Assembly: GCA_021160945.1 (NCBI GenBank)
Contig: JAGHBQ010000196.1
Coordinates: 1 to 9,006, forward strand
DNA: 9,006 bases
Direction: 5' to 3'
DNA from: Thermoplasmata archaeon
GTDB lineage: Archaea > Thermoplasmatota > Thermoplasmata > Thermoplasmatales > Aciduliprofundaceae
Position 1 is the stretch's first letter, and each line of letters starts with the position of its first letter. The notes beneath the pieces were generated by a model that was given only the letters and a program-made list of their open reading frames with translations, had not been told where the DNA came from and did not search any database. Shown here one piece after another: positions 3-8,621 of the stretch. Position numbers and translations under genes: made by a program.

Positions 3-1190
3 ACATGGCATCATACTCTTGAACTTAAAAAAAACTGGAGTGGTTCTTTATCTTTTCATCTTCCAGATGGATGGAGCTATATATCTTCCTCTCTCAGAGA
101 TGTGAAATTGGAAAATAATATGGTTGAAGGTGTCTTCGAAAAAGGCTTTATCCTCAAGCTAAGAGAAGATAAGTACTATTGGATGAGCTGGGAGGTTTAT
201 AGTCTCCTGGGAATAATTTTTGGCGCCTTTATTTACATCTCCTATAAGAGAAGGCATGTAAAAAGAAGAATAGTGAATCTGATTGTGGGTAGTCTTGTGC
301 GCAACTTAATAGCTCTTTTTATTACCCTCACGATAATTTTCTACTTTCTCTGGGTTCTGGGTCCATCTTTGGAGGCAAGAGTAGCGGGCTTGGCACCCAT
401 ATCTTCCAGATTATTTCTTGTGAAGCTTTACAATCTTGATAAACCTTGGTACGTGCAATTTTACCACTGGTGGGAAAGTGTGTTTACAGGTAAGCTTCTC
501 ACTTCTCTCAACTGGGACCAGAAATTCTCCCTTGGGGATCTTAAAGAGGGAATGATTAAATCCGCCTACATTTTTTCCATATCAACTTTTCTCTCCTATT
601 TTGTATCCACTTATCTGGGTACATTTTCAGGGAAAAAAAGAGAGCTCGATCTCCCTGCCATCATATTTCTCGTACTTTATTCTATCCCAACATTTATAGC
701 AGCACTTCTATTTTTGAGACTCTCCCAATTTAACAACTCTTTCTATATCTTTCTCGTCACTCCCTTCCAGAATGGTTTAGAGTATCTGCGGCTGATTTTC
801 CCAGCATTTATCCTATCTTTTTTGACAATAGCAAAACCCTATTTGCTCACCAAAAACGTGGCCATACGGGAATACCGAGCACCCTATGTCTTCACCTTCA
901 AAGCTGTGGGGGCGGAGAAAAAGAAAATAAGGAAACTGGTGAGAAGAACCTCTTTAATCCCCATAATAACGGATTCTGTTTTGAATTTTGGATGGATCCT
1001 CACAGCACAGCTTTTTGTGGAAGTCATATTCAAGATTAAGGGAATGGTATATCTACTCTTCGTTGGAACTACGAAAGGAAACCCATTTGAGGTTCAGCTT
1101 GCTCTGGTATATCTATCCTTTGTGATGATAACGGGCTCAATACTGGCAGATACACTCCTATTTGCTCTTGATCCCAGGGTGAGAAGATGA
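3..1190 (+). CDS. DppB-type ABC transporter permease, 5' end beyond window, with extra N-terminal exported region
   Basis: Inner-membrane subunit of a peptide/nickel-type ABC importer. Numbering from the GTG at 102, residues 66-362 match DppB-type permeases: a helix at 66-86, the conserved pre-loop NLDKPWYVQFYHWW (111-124), helices near 154-175, 186-207, 232-250, 293-311 and 333-355, an EAA-type loop near 266-290 (FKAVGAEKKKIRK) and the family ending LDPRVRR. Unusually, another helix (about 32-48) and a basic linker precede this core. The frame stays open without a stop from 102 back to the left edge, and the added residues look like beta strands (for example LSFHLPDGWSY), so the GTG at 102 is probably not the start. 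An exported, membrane-anchored N-terminal domain is inferred. The gene overlaps the next permease by 4 bases (ATGA). The substrate is unknown; peptides are likely from the family. Confidence 0.85.
   Translation, partial: TWHHTLELKKNWSGSLSFHLPDGWSYISSSLRDVKLENNMVEGVFEKGFILKLREDKYYWMSWEVYSLLGIIFGAFIYISYKRRHVKRRIVNLIVGSLVRNLIALFITLTIIFYFLWVLGPSLEARVAGLAPISSRLFLVKLYNLDKPWYVQFYHWWESVFTGKLLTSLNWDQKFSLGDLKEGMIKSAYIFSISTFLSYFVSTYLGTFSGKKRELDLPAIIFLVLYSIPTFIAALLFLRLSQFNNSFYIFLVTPFQNGLEYLRLIFPAFILSFLTIAKPYLLTKNVAIREYRAPYVFTFKAVGAEKKKIRKLVRRTSLIPIITDSVLNFGWILTAQLFVEVIFKIKGMVYLLFVGTTKGNPFEVQLALVYLSFVMITGSILADTLLFALDPRVRR
1177..1182 (+). promoter_or_regulatory. Shine-Dalgarno site for the second permease
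   Basis: GGGTGA lies 4 bases before the ATG at 1187, inside the end of the upstream permease gene. It complements the archaeal 16S 3' end and supports both the chosen start and coupled translation of the overlapping pair. Confidence 0.55.
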
Positions 1191-3016
1191 GAAAAAGAGA
1201 GAGAAGAAAGATAAAACTTTCAACCGTCGGAAAAATAAGTGCTGCAATAATAATAATGTATGTTATAATAGCTGTAATAGTTCCTTACCTCAATCTGCCA
1301 AATCCTCTTTACTACAGGGCCCCACCTCAGGACATATTTGCTCCCAAGATCTTGGATAATATAACTTTAAAAGAGAGAATATTAAGAGTAAACGCTGTAA
1401 ATAATGTGTTATATATAATAACCTCTCAGTACAAATTCGAGGCTTTCGATCTCTCTTATAAAAAGTTGATTTACACAACCAATTTAACGGCCCAGAATTA
1501 CTCATCTCTCTATCAGCTTCATTACTCCACTTATACATCCATCATATTTCACTCCTCTGATGCTGTGTATTTTTATGACACCGAAGCATCCCTTTTAAGA
1601 GAATATGAAATGAAAGTTGACAGATTGTTTCTTGTGGAACAACCCTTCTCTTATTTTGCTGGATTTGCTGTCTATAATGGAAGCGCTCTGAACGTTTATT
1701 CAGTATATCCCTTTGAAAGATTGGAATGGAGCATTCTCTTAAACGAGAGTCCCATAGGTATGCATACAGATTTCACCTCCATCTACCTTTCATTCCCAGA
1801 TAAACTTGTAAAGATATACTATGATGGCGCCAAGATGTGGGAGATAGGGGGTAATTTTACCTCCAATCCCACATTTTTAAGCAGCTATGAAGGAAATTTT
1901 GTATATGTAGCTGAGGGAATGCAGATAGATAGAATAAATATCACTGATGGCAAAATAACTGAAAGATTCAACTTCAAGCAAAATATAATTCATCTTGAAT
2001 TTTACGGCCAATCACTCTATGCGATCTCTTCTCAACATACCTTTGGAAAGATTAATCTAATAGGTGGCGGATATTCCTGGATATTAAGCGGAATAAAGAA
2101 ATATTTTATGGATCCCTTCATAGATGGTTTGACTGTTGTATTTTCCAGCGGCAAAATAGGATTTGTGCTTCTAAGCACAGGAGAAATCCAGTGGGGCTAT
2201 GAGCTTCCCGCAGATGGAATATTGATAAATAAAATTGGCTACACAGATCGTAATGTTATAGCCTACATAGGAAATAAAGTACTTATCTTCAGTGCAACTG
2301 GAGAATTGAAAACCCCTCTACCTCCAAGCAAAAAGTATCTTCTGGGTACAGATAATGCTGGCAGGGATGTTCTTTCTCAGCTTTTCTGGTCATTTAGAAG
2401 TGAGCTTTATATAGCATTTGTAAGCATGCTTGTGGTAATATTTGTAGGTACTTTTATTGGAATTATTGCCGGTTATTTTTCAGGACCAGTAGACGATATC
2501 TTAAGATTTATTACAGATTCTTTTCTTTTAATACCTGCAATAGGCTATGCAGCTCTTATGCTCTTTGTGCTTGGAATAACTCAGCATATAAATGCAACTC
2601 TTTTGGCATCTCTTTTTGCGGTATGGCCCATAGAAGCCAGGGCAGTAAGAAACTATACAAAGGTGGTTAAAGAGAAGCCCTTCATAGAGGCAGCAAAAGT
2701 TTCTGGCGCTGGGCACTTGAGGATTATGTTCATCCACATATTTCCAGAAATTTCTGTGATATCCATTGTTTATGGCCTCTCTGGTGCGGCCATGGCACTC
2801 CTTTTGGAGGTCGGTATATCTTTCCTTGGATTTGGAAACTACATGGTGCTCACCTGGGGGTGGATGATTGCCAATGCATATTTTGTAGGTATATGGGATC
2901 GATGGTGGATCATTCTGCCGCCTCTTTTGACTCTCATGCTCCTTGTGATATCACTCTACCTGCTTTCAAAAGATATTCAGGACAAAAGCTTGCCTGAGGA
3001 AGCAACCATGCTTTGA
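1187..3016 (+). CDS. DppC-type ABC transporter permease with a large extracytoplasmic beta-propeller-like insert
   Basis: Second permease subunit, partner of the DppB-like protein just upstream. A basic N-terminus and first helix (about 16-35) are followed by roughly 330 residues (about 45-380) that ordinary DppC proteins of about 300 aa lack. The canonical core then resumes: YLLGTDNAGRDV (384-395), helices near 407-430, 442-462, 470-485, 523-545 and 574-594, and the EAA loop FIEAAKVSGAGHLRIMF (499-515). The insert is beta-rich, with repeated turns such as LSTGEIQWGYEL (329-340) and NITDGKITERF (251-261) that resemble PQQ/WD propeller blades. It contains sequons at N58, N99, N104, N164, N186, N223 and N251, which fits an exposed, glycosylated location between helices 1 and 2. 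A role in docking a binding protein or capturing substrate is only inferred. A frame error is unlikely, because the frame is continuous and both ends fit. Confidence 0.88.
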   Translation: MRKRERRKIKLSTVGKISAAIIIMYVIIAVIVPYLNLPNPLYYRAPPQDIFAPKILDNITLKERILRVNAVNNVLYIITSQYKFEAFDLSYKKLIYTTNLTAQNYSSLYQLHYSTYTSIIFHSSDAVYFYDTEASLLREYEMKVDRLFLVEQPFSYFAGFAVYNGSALNVYSVYPFERLEWSILLNESPIGMHTDFTSIYLSFPDKLVKIYYDGAKMWEIGGNFTSNPTFLSSYEGNFVYVAEGMQIDRINITDGKITERFNFKQNIIHLEFYGQSLYAISSQHTFGKINLIGGGYSWILSGIKKYFMDPFIDGLTVVFSSGKIGFVLLSTGEIQWGYELPADGILINKIGYTDRNVIAYIGNKVLIFSATGELKTPLPPSKKYLLGTDNAGRDVLSQLFWSFRSELYIAFVSMLVVIFVGTFIGIIAGYFSGPVDDILRFITDSFLLIPAIGYAALMLFVLGITQHINATLLASLFAVWPIEARAVRNYTKVVKEKPFIEAAKVSGAGHLRIMFIHIFPEISVISIVYGLSGAAMALLLEVGISFLGFGNYMVLTWGWMIANAYFVGIWDRWWIILPPLLTLMLLVISLYLLSKDIQDKSLPEEATML

Positions 3017-3071: not shown

Positions 3072-3830
3072 ATGAAAGCGGTGTCCTTGGGCATAAAAAA
3101 TCTGGAGGTCTTTATACCAGGTTTGAAGGAGGGCACAATAAATTTGCTGTATGGCCCTCCAGGCTCGGGTAAAACAATAGTGGGAATGCAGTATCTTTCC
3201 CACGGAGCTAGAAGAGGTGAGGATGTCCTTTACATCTCCCTCGATCAGGTTGGGTGGAATGTTGAAAGAGATTTTGAGGATATGGATTTATTATTGGATG
3301 ATATTTATATATTTGATGCTTTTCCCATAACTTCAGGGAGGAGTGAAGTGAAACCTATCAGAGAGGTGACTCCAATAGCGTATCCTGTAAAAATGAAGGA
3401 TCTAAAAAGGAATAAGAAAATGTTTGAAGCTGATGTGTTATCTTTACAATCCACTCTTAAAAATGTATTTGACAGAAGAAAGTACGATAGGATTGTTGTG
3501 GATTCCATAACCTCCCTCAGGTATTTCTATATGAGGGGACTTAATTCCCTCAGTGGAGTGCACTCTTTTCTACAATTTCTTCAGACTTATGCACATTCCA
3601 CAGTGCTTATAATTGCAGAGAATTTTGAGAATCTTTTAATAGAAAAATCTCTGATGGACTCTGTTTTTTATCTTCAGAAGATGGAGAATTCCAACAAAGT
3701 TGTGAATCTAATAGTTGAGAAAACTTCCTTCAATTGTGATATAGAAAATATACCCCTTAAACTTACCAAAAGCGGTTTCGGGGTCGATGAAAAATTCTAT
3801 CTCAAATTTGTAAGGAGGAAAAGCGTATGA
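3072..3830 (+). CDS. KaiC/RAD55-like RecA-superfamily ATPase, divergent copy
   Basis: Single-domain KaiC-like P-loop ATPase of the KaiC/GvpD/RAD55 group, probably cytoplasmic; its cellular role is unknown. Visible motifs are Walker A GPPGSGKT (28-35), the strand RIVVDS (140-145) with Walker B Asp144, and an IREVT motif (96-100) shared with the next gene. Two KaiC hallmarks are altered. The catalytic Glu-Glu pair after the second strand is Asp58-Gln59. The C-terminal K-x-R-G segment that senses the neighbouring subunit's nucleotide is replaced by VEKTS (215-219). It overlaps the next gene by 4 bases and shares its layout, so the two look like a tandem duplication whose products may form a mixed oligomer. 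ATP binding is likely; hydrolysis may be weak. A RadA recombinase is excluded by length and by the lack of a DNA-binding N-terminal domain. Confidence 0.82.
   Translation: MKAVSLGIKNLEVFIPGLKEGTINLLYGPPGSGKTIVGMQYLSHGARRGEDVLYISLDQVGWNVERDFEDMDLLLDDIYIFDAFPITSGRSEVKPIREVTPIAYPVKMKDLKRNKKMFEADVLSLQSTLKNVFDRRKYDRIVVDSITSLRYFYMRGLNSLSGVHSFLQFLQTYAHSTVLIIAENFENLLIEKSLMDSVFYLQKMENSNKVVNLIVEKTSFNCDIENIPLKLTKSGFGVDEKFYLKFVRRKSV
3814..3818 (+). promoter_or_regulatory. Shine-Dalgarno site for the second KaiC-like gene
   Basis: GGAGG (within AAGGAGGAAAA) lies 8 bases before the ATG at 3827. It supports that start and translation from a shared mRNA with the upstream KaiC-like gene. Confidence 0.65.
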
Positions 3831-4555
3831 GAAAAAAATTTGGGATAACAGGCCTCGATAAGATGCTAAGTGGGGGGTTGAAGGAGGAGAGTACTTATCT
3901 TTTAATAGGTCCCACTGGTGCGGGTAAAACAATAGTTGCGGCCCGCTTTTTGCTGGAAGGGCTTCTCAATGGAGAGAACTGCCTTTACATAGCTGTAGAT
4001 AAGCCTCCATCAATTGTACTTCAGAATGTGATTTTGGGATTTGGATGGAATCTCAGTAGATTAAGGGTGATGGATGCTGTCCCATCCGAAATGCTATACT
4101 CCACAGCCCCTTCGGTGAGGGATATAACTGCCAAAGGCGAGATAAGTGCAGCCCACAAGGTGGAGAATAGGATTGAGAGAGGAGAGCTTAGTGTAGAAGG
4201 TTTGGTCATCAAGATTCTCAATGATGTAAAAGAGAAAAAATACGATAGGGTTGTACTTGATTCTCTAACCGTATTCAAGAGATTCGCGGTGGATGAATCC
4301 ACAGCAATGCAGGGAGTCCATAGACTTTTCACTTTCTTTCCTTCTATTGGTGCCACTGCACTTATCACGGCATCTGATGAAATGAATCTGAAAGCCGAGA
4401 CTCTTCTAAGTTCTGGAGTCATCAAGATAGAGAAAATCCTTACTTCTTCAGGATATGAGAGGTACATTAGAATACTTAAGATGAGGGGAAGTGACTATGA
4501 TCCCAAACCAAAAAGGATGTATATTACAGAGGATGGCATATTTGTTCTTAGATGA
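3827..4555 (+). CDS. KaiC/RAD55-like RecA-superfamily ATPase
   Basis: Second KaiC-like ATPase of the pair. It begins with the KaiC lead-in FGITGLDKMLSGGL (5-18), followed by Walker A GPTGAGKT (28-35), an SVRDIT motif (96-101), Walker B RVVLDS with Asp145, and the classic ending ILKMRGS (216-222) with Lys218 and Arg220 in the subunit-interface sensor position. A KaiC-type tail MYITEDGIFV follows near the end. As in its partner, the usual Glu-Glu pair is changed, here to Asp58-Lys59. At 242 aa it is a normal length for single-domain archaeal KaiC homologues. Because this copy keeps the K-x-R sensor and its partner has lost it, a heteromeric ATPase with unequal subunits is plausible but inferred. 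No archaellum, gas vesicle or sensory genes are nearby to suggest a pathway. Confidence 0.85.
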   Translation: MRKKFGITGLDKMLSGGLKEESTYLLIGPTGAGKTIVAARFLLEGLLNGENCLYIAVDKPPSIVLQNVILGFGWNLSRLRVMDAVPSEMLYSTAPSVRDITAKGEISAAHKVENRIERGELSVEGLVIKILNDVKEKKYDRVVLDSLTVFKRFAVDESTAMQGVHRLFTFFPSIGATALITASDEMNLKAETLLSSGVIKIEKILTSSGYERYIRILKMRGSDYDPKPKRMYITEDGIFVLR

Positions 4556-4588: not shown

Positions 4589-4984
4589 ATGGGCTATGAA
4601 ATTCCAAAAGAAGATGAAGTTGTGAGAATTATACTCAAGATTCTGAAGAGAAGAGGAAGTGTTGAATCTCAGAGAGAATTGCATGATGAGGTTATGAAGC
4701 ATCTTTTAAGAATAAATAAAAATTATAAACTTGGCCCTAGAAGAATGAGGCTCATAGCCTTAAATTCCAGGAAAGTTAGGATGGAAATAAGATACAAAGT
4801 AATGAATAAAAATATAGAAAATATAGAAATCTGTCCGGTATGTGGGAGCAAGATGGTGAAAATTGAGAATGCTACATTAGAGGGTGATAGAATAATTATA
4901 GGATTTAAATGTGTGAACTGCCCCTACTGGACAGGAAAAAAGTTGAGATTGCCCGTGAGATATATATTCAGATATAGGGGATGA
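4589..4984 (+). CDS. Winged-helix-like protein with C-terminal zinc ribbon, uncharacterised archaeal family
   Basis: A 131-residue basic protein. Residues 8-70 are helical and charged; the run KRRGSVESQRELHDEVMKHL suggests a small helix-turn-helix or winged-helix fold. Residues 82-111 hold a zinc ribbon with paired C-x2-C knuckles, CPVC (82-85) and CVNC (108-111), joined by two beta strands. The ending, rich in Arg and aromatic residues, follows directly. I believe similar proteins occur widely in archaea as conserved hypotheticals, but no function can be named from the sequence. A nucleic-acid-binding role (transcription or RNA) is inferred from the fold and charge. It has its own strong TATA box and ends 9 bases from the stop of the convergent small zinc-protein gene. 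Confidence 0.8.
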   Translation: MGYEIPKEDEVVRIILKILKRRGSVESQRELHDEVMKHLLRINKNYKLGPRRMRLIALNSRKVRMEIRYKVMNKNIENIEICPVCGSKMVKIENATLEGDRIIIGFKCVNCPYWTGKKLRLPVRYIFRYRG

Positions 4985-5235: not shown

Positions 5236-6450
5236 ATGAGGCGAAGGTATTCCTTTTATGTGTTTGGTGATCTATGCACTAGATGCAAGGGAAGATTATG
5301 GTGCGGTTTGTCCAAGTGCCCTATTCTGGAGAGTGTTAAGAACTATATTCCAAGAATAAAGATATTTTCTTCTTCTATTTTCGGTGTGTCACCACCCAGC
5401 ATATTTGTGGGTCACTGTGGCTATCCAAATGTTTTTGCAGGCCCTCTCATCGGTGAGGATGAGAGAAAGATGTTTACATCCACTGCAGAACTCTATGGAA
5501 AAAGTTTAGAGGAAATCTTGGGAAGAACTTCTGTGCTAATAAGAACCGCCCGAAGGATAAATATTAAGAAAATGAGGGGGAAGATGATCGAAACTTCGCA
5601 GGAAATCGCAATGTCAGAAAAAAGTGTGGATACAGAAGTACTAGTGGACAAAGTTTATCAGGTTCCACAGATAGATCAGTTCTTTCATCCTACAGGACCA
5701 AGAATAGAACCTAGGAGAATAGATATTGTGGACAATCCTACAATACCACGTAAAGTTGATATGGTAGTGGATGAAAAATTAAAAGCTGAAAGAGCTCTGA
5801 GGGAACTCTACAGATACGGATACAACGTGGATTATCTTCAGAGACTACTTTCTTCTGGGGTTCTGGGGAGAGATAGAAAACTGGTACCCACAAGATGGAG
5901 TATAACAGCTGTGGATGATACACTTTCTCGAGCAATATTGGAAAGAGTCAAATATATGCAGGAAATGAGTGAGATACTTTACTTCTTCAATTCTTTTATG
6001 GGTAATGAGTTTCATATACTTCTCCTTCCCGGTTCCTGGGAGTATGAGATGATAGAGTCCTGGATGCGAGGCTCTCTTTATTCTCCATCCTCCGTTGTAA
6101 TAGGTGAAGATTATGAACCCTTCAATGGTAGAAAAGATTATGCCAGCAACATTACAGGGGCTTATTATGCAGCCAGATTAGGCGTGGCTGAGTATTTGAA
6201 CCGGATTGGTAGGCAGGCCAGAGTTATAGTATATCGTGAAATTACTTCTGAATACAAGATACCTTTAGGAGTATGGGTTATAAGAGAAACTGTTAGAAAG
6301 GCATTTAAATCATCACCTACAAAATTTGACAGTATTGATGAGGCAGTGAATTATGTAAAGGCAAAAACGAGAGTAAAGGAATGGGCTTCAAAGAGCAGGA
6401 TAATCTATATGTTAAAACATCAGAAAAGGATTGAAGATTTTATGCTCTGA
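5236..6450 (+). CDS. nreA: Nre-family DNA repair protein (NreA)
   Basis: Archaeal Nre repair protein. In haloarchaea, NreA works with UvrABC against DNA damage such as mitomycin C crosslinks and contacts PCNA. The N-terminus has the family's zinc finger C14-x2-C17-x5-C23-x4-C28 (CTRCKGRLWCGLSKC), followed by the hallmark SPPSIFVGHCGYPNVFAGPL (52-71). A variable middle follows, and the C-terminal Nre domain (about 220-375) includes RWSITAVDDTLSR and DYASNITGAYYAARLGVAEYL. The last residues, QKRIEDFML (396-404), resemble a PCNA-interacting peptide (Q-x-x-I-x-x-F) with Met instead of a second aromatic. At 404 aa the length is typical. It is divergent from a small zinc-protein gene, and its last 11 bases overlap the convergent DUF1611 gene. 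NreA rather than NreB is chosen because of the PIP-like tail. Confidence 0.9.
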   Translation: MRRRYSFYVFGDLCTRCKGRLWCGLSKCPILESVKNYIPRIKIFSSSIFGVSPPSIFVGHCGYPNVFAGPLIGEDERKMFTSTAELYGKSLEEILGRTSVLIRTARRINIKKMRGKMIETSQEIAMSEKSVDTEVLVDKVYQVPQIDQFFHPTGPRIEPRRIDIVDNPTIPRKVDMVVDEKLKAERALRELYRYGYNVDYLQRLLSSGVLGRDRKLVPTRWSITAVDDTLSRAILERVKYMQEMSEILYFFNSFMGNEFHILLLPGSWEYEMIESWMRGSLYSPSSVVIGEDYEPFNGRKDYASNITGAYYAARLGVAEYLNRIGRQARVIVYREITSEYKIPLGVWVIRETVRKAFKSSPTKFDSIDEAVNYVKAKTRVKEWASKSRIIYMLKHQKRIEDFML

Positions 6451-7462
6451 GAACGGCATCCAGTAATTTCTTTGCATGAGTTTTAAGAACATCTTCTGCA
6501 GGTAATCCAAGCTCGCTTTCAACTTTCTCTATATATTTCCTCACCTTCACATCACTCATATTTTCAGCATCTACAGAAATACCAACAACCTTCCCGCCAG
6601 AAACATTCTCAGCAAGCTTTTCATAGAGCTCTATTGTTCTTTCCAGAGAAAGTATCGGGAATCCAAGACCCTCGTATCCACTGTGCTCTTTTCTTGTGGG
6701 GTCATGTGCTATTATTATCTTTTTTGCATATGAGCCATGGAGAATTGCCAAGGTAACTCCACTGTACGCTGGATGAGCCAAATCTCCTTGACCTTCCACA
6801 AAAACTATTTCCTTCTCTTCTCCAACTTTTTTAATCATCTCCTCTACAGCACCTGCCATAAAATCTCCAGGTATGCGGTCTATTACAGCACCTGCATCGC
6901 AACCTATCATAATTCCAGTTTGTCCCGTGGCTACAAATCCTGCATTGAGACCTCTTCTTTTTGCTTCCTGAGTTAATTCCACGGCTGTTATCATCTTTCC
7001 AACACTGCAATCTGTACCTGCAACGAGCACTGTGTTTATATTCTTTCCACTGCCATCAGCCACTCTCAAATTCTTTGGGGTTTTTCTCACATCCCAAATT
7101 TTTGCACCGGTTTTTTCTGCAATGCTTACAAATTCATTATCTTCGCTGAGAAAATAGTGAAGTCCAGATATTACATTTTTTCCCTCCATAAGAGCTTTCT
7201 TAATCTCTCCTCTCCAGTCCTCTGGAAGGGCACCACCTATTGGAGCAGCACCTATTATAAGGGTATCGTAATCTTTTACCTCATCTATACTTTTAACGAT
7301 GGGTACTTTTCTCTTACCTGGAAAGAAATCAGAAGCATAATGCCCTGCCCTATCCTTATCAATTATTGCCACTATTTCATGGGGGGAGTAAAGATATACT
7401 CCCCTTGCTGTCTTTCCCCCGAACCCCAAGAATGTGCCATGGGCTAAGATTGCAAGTTTCAT
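6440..7462 (-). CDS. dgcN: DUF1611 family protein, probable D-glutamate N-acetyltransferase (DgcN-like)
   Basis: Members of DUF1611 (COG3367) have a Rossmann-like N-terminal half and a P-loop C-terminal half. The characterised member DgcN acetylates D-glutamate with acetyl-CoA in marine bacteria and haloarchaea. Visible here are the family start MKLAILAHG, a middle strand TLIIGAAPIGG (67-77), the P-loop-like GTDCSVGKM (149-157), FVATGQTGIMIG (176-187), a conserved EGQGDLAHPAYSGV (223-236) and HDPTRKEH (253-260). The 340-residue length is typical. The gene directly upstream encodes a dipeptide-epimerase-like racemase, the same partnership as dgcN-dgcA, which strengthens the call. No Shine-Dalgarno site precedes the ATG, and a weak TATA sits about 28 bases upstream, so it may have its own promoter. 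The substrate is inferred from the family. Confidence 0.75.
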   Translation of the reverse strand: MKLAILAHGTFLGFGGKTARGVYLYSPHEIVAIIDKDRAGHYASDFFPGKRKVPIVKSIDEVKDYDTLIIGAAPIGGALPEDWRGEIKKALMEGKNVISGLHYFLSEDNEFVSIAEKTGAKIWDVRKTPKNLRVADGSGKNINTVLVAGTDCSVGKMITAVELTQEAKRRGLNAGFVATGQTGIMIGCDAGAVIDRIPGDFMAGAVEEMIKKVGEEKEIVFVEGQGDLAHPAYSGVTLAILHGSYAKKIIIAHDPTRKEHSGYEGLGFPILSLERTIELYEKLAENVSGGKVVGISVDAENMSDVKVRKYIEKVESELGLPAEDVLKTHAKKLLDAVLRA

Positions 7463-7568: not shown

Positions 7569-8621
7569 TTAAAAGATGGAGCTCAGCTCTTTTATTCCAA
7601 GTCCAGGTTTATCGTAGACATAGTTGTAGCCCTTTTCGTATTTTAATCCATCAAATGGCTGCTCCTTCAAATCCCAGTAACCATCGAGATCTGCGTAATC
7701 CACGCCTACTCCGAGGGCAAAGTGGGTACCAGCAGCAATTCCCACCTTCGTTTCAATCATACACCCGACCATTATTTTCATTCCTGCAGCCCTTGCAATT
7801 GAAGCCATTTTAAGAGCTTCATAAATCCCACCGCTTTTCATCAGTTTTATGTTTATCGCATCCACTTTTCCAATGAGGTTAAGAATGTCATGAGAATTGT
7901 GTACACTTTCATCAGCCATTATAGCTACTGGCACTTTCTCCCTCAGTATTTTCATCTCCTCCTCGCGACCCACAGGTAGTGGCTGTTCTGCAAACTCTAT
8001 CTCATATTTATCAATGGCGTTTAACACCTTCACAGCTTGTCTTAGAGAGTATCCCTGGTTTCCATCCACTCTTATCCTCACGTCGGTGATCTTCCTTATT
8101 TCTTTTATTCTTTCTATATCTTCATCGGGATTTAGGCCTATTTTTACTTTAAGCACCTTGGCACCCTGTTCAAGAAGCTCCTCTGCATGCTTTACACTTC
8201 TCTCCACTGAGCTTATGTCAACTGTGAGCGAAGTCTCGATTCTCTCTTTTTTTCCACCCAGAAGATTTTTGAGTGGCATACCGGCCATCTGGGCAAGTAT
8301 GTCAAATAATGCAAAATCTATTGCTGCCTTTGCACTGGAGTTGTGAATCATATTTCTATTAATCTCCTCCATTATTTTTCCATAATTTTCCACATGTTGC
8401 CCTATGACTAAAGGCTTAAATCTTTTGAGAGATGCCACAATAGATTGTACGGTGTCCCCCACTATTTTAGGAGATGGAGATGCTTCTCCATACCCGCAAA
8501 ATTCCTCTGTGCAAATCTTCACTACAACACCTTCATAGTTTTCCATTGTACCAAGAGCTATTTTGAAAGGTTTTTTTAGAGGAATATTTAGCACTTTCCA
8601 ATCCATACTTATGATTTCCAT
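7569..8621 (-). CDS. dgcA: Enolase-superfamily dipeptide epimerase / N-acetyl-D-glutamate racemase (DgcA-like)
   Basis: Muconate-lactonizing-enzyme subgroup of the enolase superfamily. It inverts the alpha carbon of L-Ala-D/L-Glu-type dipeptides or, in the DgcA branch, of N-acetyl-D-glutamate. The capping domain (about 1-125) is followed by a barrel with catalytic Lys160 in KVK (158-160), metal ligands Asp186 (RVDGNQGY), Glu212 (EFAEQPL) and Asp237 (MADES), and the opposing Lys262 (NIKLMKSGG). The D-x-D pair D311/D313 (DLDG), which holds the dipeptide amino group in known epimerases, is present, so a dipeptide substrate remains possible. The 350-residue length is normal. It starts 24 bases after the FtsZ-like stop, and the DgcN-like gene follows it, so D-glutamate or D-Glu-peptide catabolism is inferred. 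No well-spaced Shine-Dalgarno site is seen; GAGGT lies 18 bases upstream. Confidence 0.88.
   Translation of the reverse strand: MEIISMDWKVLNIPLKKPFKIALGTMENYEGVVVKICTEEFCGYGEASPSPKIVGDTVQSIVASLKRFKPLVIGQHVENYGKIMEEINRNMIHNSSAKAAIDFALFDILAQMAGMPLKNLLGGKKERIETSLTVDISSVERSVKHAEELLEQGAKVLKVKIGLNPDEDIERIKEIRKITDVRIRVDGNQGYSLRQAVKVLNAIDKYEIEFAEQPLPVGREEEMKILREKVPVAIMADESVHNSHDILNLIGKVDAINIKLMKSGGIYEALKMASIARAAGMKIMVGCMIETKVGIAAGTHFALGVGVDYADLDGYWDLKEQPFDGLKYEKGYNYVYDKPGLGIKELSSIF

Follow-up and report, generated by a model that had tools for sequence, protein, structure and literature searches.

A predicted beta-propeller inserted in a DppC-type permease of Thermoplasmata archaea

Introduction

In type I ATP-binding cassette (ABC) importers, cargo is generally taken to be delivered by a substrate-binding protein (SBP), separate or fused. 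In GlnPQ and OpuA the SBP is fused to the permease, giving a covalently tied capture device. In the maltose importer, also of type I, the permease MalF has a folded domain, P2, inserted in one of its extracytoplasmic loops, where it meets the SBP; P2 is small, contains no propeller and lies in another loop than the one considered here. The beta-propeller BamB belongs, as a free lipoprotein, to the outer-membrane assembly machine. Here we describe a dppB-dppC permease gene pair from a Thermoplasmata archaeon in which the loop after the first helix of DppC holds an extra domain of about 320 residues, predicted to fold as an eight-bladed beta-propeller. The stretch analysed (the window) is the whole of contig JAGHBQ010000196.1 (C119, 9006 bases), from an archaeal genome bin that is 76% complete. 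Its source organism clusters with Aciduliprofundum/DHVE2 archaea, the named relatives being metagenome-assembled genomes labelled Thermoplasmata archaeon, DHVE2 group or Aciduliprofundum. Archaea of this type are expected to have a single membrane. In the labels used below, G stands for a genome, L for a locus, P for a database protein and g for a genus.

The predicted propeller insert of DppC

The features of the DppC-type gene are as follows.
1187..3016, plus strand: DppC-type permease with propeller insert, 609 amino acids (aa); start codon overlaps the DppB stop (ATGA)
1226..1291, plus strand: transmembrane helix 1 (TM1), residues 13-34
1301..1348, plus strand: conserved neck, NPLYYRAPPQDIFAP, with a mean pairwise identity of 65% over residues 37-52
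1343..2302, plus strand: predicted BamB-like beta-propeller of eight blades (residues 53-372), in which the N-terminal strand 55-60 is taken to complete blade 8
2174..2206, plus strand: STGEIQWGYEL hairpin, in blade 7 of the predicted propeller
2318..2371, plus strand: linker with the DppC motif LPPSKKYLLGTDNAGRDV
2369..2989, plus strand: permease core, residues 395-601
2645..2749, plus strand: coupling (EAA) loop on the cytoplasmic side, strongly conserved, with PE instead of the PN seen in the other DppCs compared

The permease identity of the chain is clear from its core, which scores 53.1 bits against BPD_transp_1 (gathering score 26.4) and is preceded by LGTDNAGRD at residues 386-394. GTDxxGRD stands before TM2 in 21/21 aligned propeller-DppC members, and the same number carry the coupling-loop pattern E(A/S)A(K/R)xxGA. 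No named NCBIfam equivalog is passed, the best being Opp4C at 146.4 of 350 bits, and the protein is therefore not filed under any named subfamily. A sequence-only reading of the window had proposed a large beta-rich insert between helix 1 and LGTDNAGRD, with a propeller-like fold and blade-like repeats such as STGEIQWGYEL. The insert is confirmed, in the TM1-TM2 loop, and the fold is supported by prediction: the predicted structure is a closed ring of eight four-stranded blades (closure being our reading of the strand order), with BamB/PQQ-type propellers as the best Foldseek matches. The predicted fold and these matches rule out a chance beta-rich linker. Sequence repeats were dropped as proof of a propeller, since they are weak in the window and 99/500 shuffles score equally high; likewise PF13360 gives the insert only 14.4 bits, below its gathering score of 27.6. 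No SBP domain was found in the DppC chain, where Pfam (E up to 0.1) gives only BPD_transp_1. A frameshift or gene-fusion artefact is ruled out by the same layout in 21 database proteins (P0001-P0021) and eight full-length genomic copies.

The propeller is probably an extracellular loop, with the neck and the exit strand both on its membrane side. Seven N-glycosylation sequons lie inside the insert (1343-2302) versus two in the permease part, and the cysteine count of the whole protein is zero. Among aligned members the propeller diverges faster than the permease core, and its conserved spots are the neck, GNFTSNP, PF and the DG loops.

Distribution of the pair

A search of the family found the pair in 9/18 genomes, complete in eight and truncated at a contig end in G318. 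Four of the nine genomes without it belong to genus g3 and are 93-99% complete (G174, G206, G231, G234). The dppB/dppC overlap of four bases is present in 7/7 sites checked, and the pair itself is kept while the gene neighbourhood around it varies from genus to genus. Across the class, an insert profile matched 10/400 genomes, nine from the family of the window and a tenth that is doubtful, and 5/389 in a sample of the phylum, where again all but one doubtful match (four) are from that family. The matches in G379 (8e-4, in a frame with two stops) and G439 (2.4e-4) are short and lie in long frames; they were taken as other propellers or chance. At the G439 locus (L083), neither of two long open reading frames (ORFs) was tagged as a permease by the motif filter. 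The sequence-only reading had allowed that the insert might prove common and already described, which turned out half true: the propeller insert is rare and confined to one family, large ectodomains at the same place in DppC are common in the class, and no description of a propeller in an Opp/Dpp permease was found in the literature searched, most subscription papers being outside its reach.

A second, larger ectodomain class

These common ectodomains belong to a DppC size class of 770-840 aa (P0045/L054), which carries an insert of about 540 residues in the TM1-TM2 loop and is found throughout Thermoplasmata. For the one copy folded, P0045, the ectodomain is also predicted to be a propeller. 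One genome thus has two DppCs bearing predicted propellers, the second in a B-C-D-F operon with its own ATPases, and to this extent the original observation was right and proves wider than proposed. The larger DppC has an exit motif, LPLPPG...LGTD, similar to that of the propeller pair, and homology between the two inserts was undetected by hhalign profile-profile comparison (probability 2.6). In a tree built from 33 DppC cores (those of L003, L005, L006, L072, L074, L084 and P0043 were missed by the motif filter and dropped), the propeller type and the larger type each form one group against the other; the long propeller-type branch (2.34) means that its nearest relative cannot be placed from this tree.

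The larger size class occurs in all nine pair genomes, its insert profile matching 9/9, and, by frame length, in 7/9 family genomes without the pair, of which the profile matches only G333. In G231 a giant SBP gene lies directly upstream of the larger-class DppC system, and in G013 (L082) and G059 a giant SBP stands apart from any permease match. These giants, about 1400 aa long, are SBP_bac_5 proteins that also contain Ig-like (Big_1) domains (L011:1431-5699, L082:4868-9181, L058:7673-12001). The one in L011 ends in a coiled stretch and a hydrophobic helix, and resembles a binding protein on a stalk. The DppBs next to some larger DppCs are themselves long, at 491, 580 and 645 aa (L053:3953-5428, L075:6409-8151, L080:3577-5514) versus about 330, and may carry extra domains. 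G013 also has a further DppC of 469 aa, about 180 residues beyond the ordinary length, in a complete system with SBP and ATPases (L072:3362-4771, minus strand).

The sequence-only reading had suggested a built-in receptor or docking platform that might replace or anchor a binding protein. That interpretation is partly supported. The propeller pair, with no adjoining SBP, is consistent with replacement; but the second DppC with a predicted propeller has ATPases of its own, and the G231 DppC of the same size class has a giant SBP directly upstream, which makes docking of an SBP at least as good an explanation.

The partner DppB

The window starts inside dppB, and the region upstream of that gene lies outside its view. 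The partner shows the following features.
3..1190, plus strand: partner permease of the DppB type, of which 395 aa are visible, the 5' end of the gene lying beyond the contig start
3..191, plus strand: remainder of the extra N-terminal domain, by alignment
195..245, plus strand: likely extra transmembrane helix ahead of the canonical permease, by alignment; a hydropathy scan of P0066 is below its threshold there
357..449, plus strand: counterpart of the SBP-binding scoop region, running from TM1 to helix 3; in a comparison made with the relative L011, the M. tuberculosis DppB segment is longer by two residues
879..962, plus strand: altered ATPase-coupling loop, P-T-V-L-T versus D-T-K-H-N, one residue shorter

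A full-length near-copy, P0066 (535 aa, 97% identical over the shared part), has about 230 extra N-terminal residues before the canonical permease, which begin like a signal peptide and go on with an EF-hand-like loop, another domain and what is likely an additional helix. The loop is a putative calcium loop. Its pattern, DxDxDGxLxxxE, is found in 6/6 uncut loci and 9/10 database relatives (partly the same proteins; absent from P0073) and in 0/2000 shuffles of P0066, and Pfam EF-hand_1 stays under its cut-off at 22.6 of 25.4 bits. According to PMC12136057, the scoop region of DppB binds the SBP, which in E. coli caps the gate there.

Coupling surface and transport genes

PMC12136057 describes E. 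coli DppB residues D235, T239, K243, H254 and N258 as contacts of DppD, and DppC residues S196, N210 and N214 as contacts of DppF. For comparison, E. coli DppB numbering was transferred to M. tuberculosis DppB by equal spacing. The motif filter missed the DppB of L010/L057, and three DppCs that fell in the DppB table (L004_321, L072_476, L073_315) were counted only as DppC controls. These archaea supplied 15 other DppBs for comparison: 10 have exactly DTKHN, four are off at one or two places and one reads QSMYN. The last is L072 of G013, which has its own ATPases and the same one-residue gap as the propeller pair, whose DppB coupling loop is one residue shorter in 18/18 rows (loci plus database copies, partly duplicates) and keeps the T in 15/18.

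The transport genes can be counted in G013, a single contig. Its 11 BPD_transp_1 domains make up five Dpp-type B/C pairs and one other; its eight oligo_HPY ATPases form four pairs, each adjoining a B/C pair; and three of its four SBPs stand beside complete systems, with one apart (L053, L072, L073, L074 and L082 were inspected). Dpp-type pairs also outnumber ATPase pairs in G059 (4 versus 3) and G158 (7 versus 6). In these three near-complete genomes no ATPase or SBP gene adjoins the propeller pair.

Weighing the possible functions

Our leading reading, held tentatively and at somewhat less than an even chance, is that of a peptide-type importer whose tethered propeller would form an outside platform over the pore, capturing or docking cargo or a shared SBP, with ATPases whose genes would lie elsewhere in the genome. 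Suspended on its short neck above the outer mouth of the B/C pore, beside the DppB scoop, the propeller would keep cargo, or an SBP, at the gate, and the transport cycle would be driven by one of these distantly encoded ATPases. Cargo of the peptide type, and power in trans through a coupling surface unlike that of most other Dpp systems compared, would belong to the same picture, every step of which beyond the propeller fold is one that we infer. Several results weigh against it. Four of the five DppB contacts are replaced in 18/18 propeller-pair rows (P, V/I, non-His, T/S), and the equivalent of DppC N214 is E in 29/29 propeller rows versus N in 10/10 others; such changes at the DppD and DppF contacts speak against simple borrowing of other Dpp ATPases. 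In G013 the closest ABC_tran match to the pair is about 19 kb off. To look for a dedicated ATPase distributed with the pair, the non-HPY ATPase regions of G013 (16) were compared with those of G059 (15) and G231 (17); L095 and L110 gave no ORF under the filter used. Two, L093 and L097, had a reciprocal best match in G059 at at least 50% identity and none in G231, neither of them near the pair; L096, with a weak G059 match (32%), is also away from it. Conservation does not favour the outer face of the propeller: its loops on the membrane side are conserved slightly more strongly, and 0.9504 of permutations attain the difference that a conserved outer face would be expected to show (post hoc). 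The data thus give no support to a ligand site on that face. Finally, genus g1 has a giant SBP gene (1422 aa in L011 of G158; its 3' part is also present in L007) that shares the strand of the pair and precedes it by about 2.7 kb, an interval holding three genes of the opposite strand. The description of the pair as lacking an SBP may therefore not hold in that genus.

The lack of a nearby ATPase gene in the three near-complete genomes and the coupling contacts, rewritten in every row tested, favour a pair that no longer pumps, having lost its ATPase coupling to become a membrane-anchored receptor or scaffold, in surface protein assembly or sensing for example, with the permease fold as its anchor; the scaffold role of BamB, the closest fold, in an assembly machine agrees with this. 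However, the cytoplasmic loop RAVRNYTKVVKEKP is strongly conserved, the core is far better kept than the propeller, GTDxxGRD is retained, and the ATPase-equipped L072 has similarly changed contacts, so that altered contacts need not mean loss of the motor. The coupling surface has features of its own that the family conserves, and this points more to a particular cytoplasmic partner than to a dead interface. We regard loss of pumping as unlikely, with about half the weight of the importer reading. Slightly less likely is the fuller history in which the pair shed its own motor and SBP and became a propeller-bearing surface receptor (sensor or assembly scaffold), in a lineage that built propellers into the DppC TM1-TM2 loop, possibly repeatedly. 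The pair could also be an accessory of the larger propeller system, using its giant SBP and DppD/DppF. Presence of the larger size class in all nine pair genomes, the giant SBP gene of genus g1 and the solitary giants of G013 and G059 fit such a role, but the larger class is also present in most family genomes without the pair, the giant SBP of G231 directly precedes the larger system, the coupling residues of the two systems differ and their insert profiles do not match; we hold this to be improbable, a shade below the preceding alternative. A passive spacer or cell-wall tether, lifting or anchoring the transporter in the S-layer with no role in transport, would account for the faster divergence of the propeller and for its sequons, as expected of an exposed domain, yet the conserved neck, GNFTSNP, PF and DG loops suggest specific contacts, and this reading is the least probable.

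Neighbouring genes

The remaining genes of the window are listed below.
3072-3830, 3827-4555 and 4589-4984, plus strand: tandem genes for KaiC-like ATPases (two) and then one for a small zinc-ribbon-like protein, following the permease pair
5236-6450, plus strand: archaeal Nre protein, with each of its two Pfam halves scoring well above the cut-off
6440-7462 and 7569-8621, minus strand: DUF1611 protein beside an enolase-superfamily dipeptide-epimerase-like enzyme

The KaiC-like ATPases were rejected as a conserved partner or motor, as they stand beside the pair, with the zinc-ribbon-like gene and in the same order, in the window, L011 and L007 and are absent there in L009, L052, L055 and L057. 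Pairs of DUF1611 and dipeptide-epimerase-like proteins presumably act in the use of D-glutamate or dipeptides, which would fit a peptide-eating cell.

Comparison with known systems

If the importer reading is true, a receptor-like propeller fixed above its own gate, with no adjoining SBP or motor, would be another way to load or gate an importer, and would suggest how archaea that lack an outer membrane hold at their surface the parts that capture peptides. Since the larger version is spread through the class, the role of the ectodomain (SBP docking, peptide binding or gate sealing) is directly testable in cultured Thermoplasmata.

Described systems differ from the propeller pair in several respects. 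The short linker that the sequence-only reading ascribed to OppC/DppC proteins is what the solved DppC/OppC chains aligned here have; unlike the propeller DppC, those of E. coli DppBCDF and M. tuberculosis DppABCD (8z1w, 8wda) hold no large domain between TM1 and TM2, and their coupling loops read PN rather than PE. The E. coli system has its own SBP and two ATPases (PMC12136057), while no gene of either kind adjoins the propeller pair in G013, G059 or G158. In GlnPQ and OpuA the fused domain is an SBP, whereas the propeller DppC has no Pfam SBP domain. The likeness to MalF P2 is one of function only, given a different loop and fold. BamB/PQQ propellers (PF13360) share the predicted fold of the insert, with a sequence match below the family cut-off. 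The 770-840-aa DppCs have their ectodomain at the same TM1-TM2 place and a similar exit motif, and differ in their larger insert and B-C-D-F operon.
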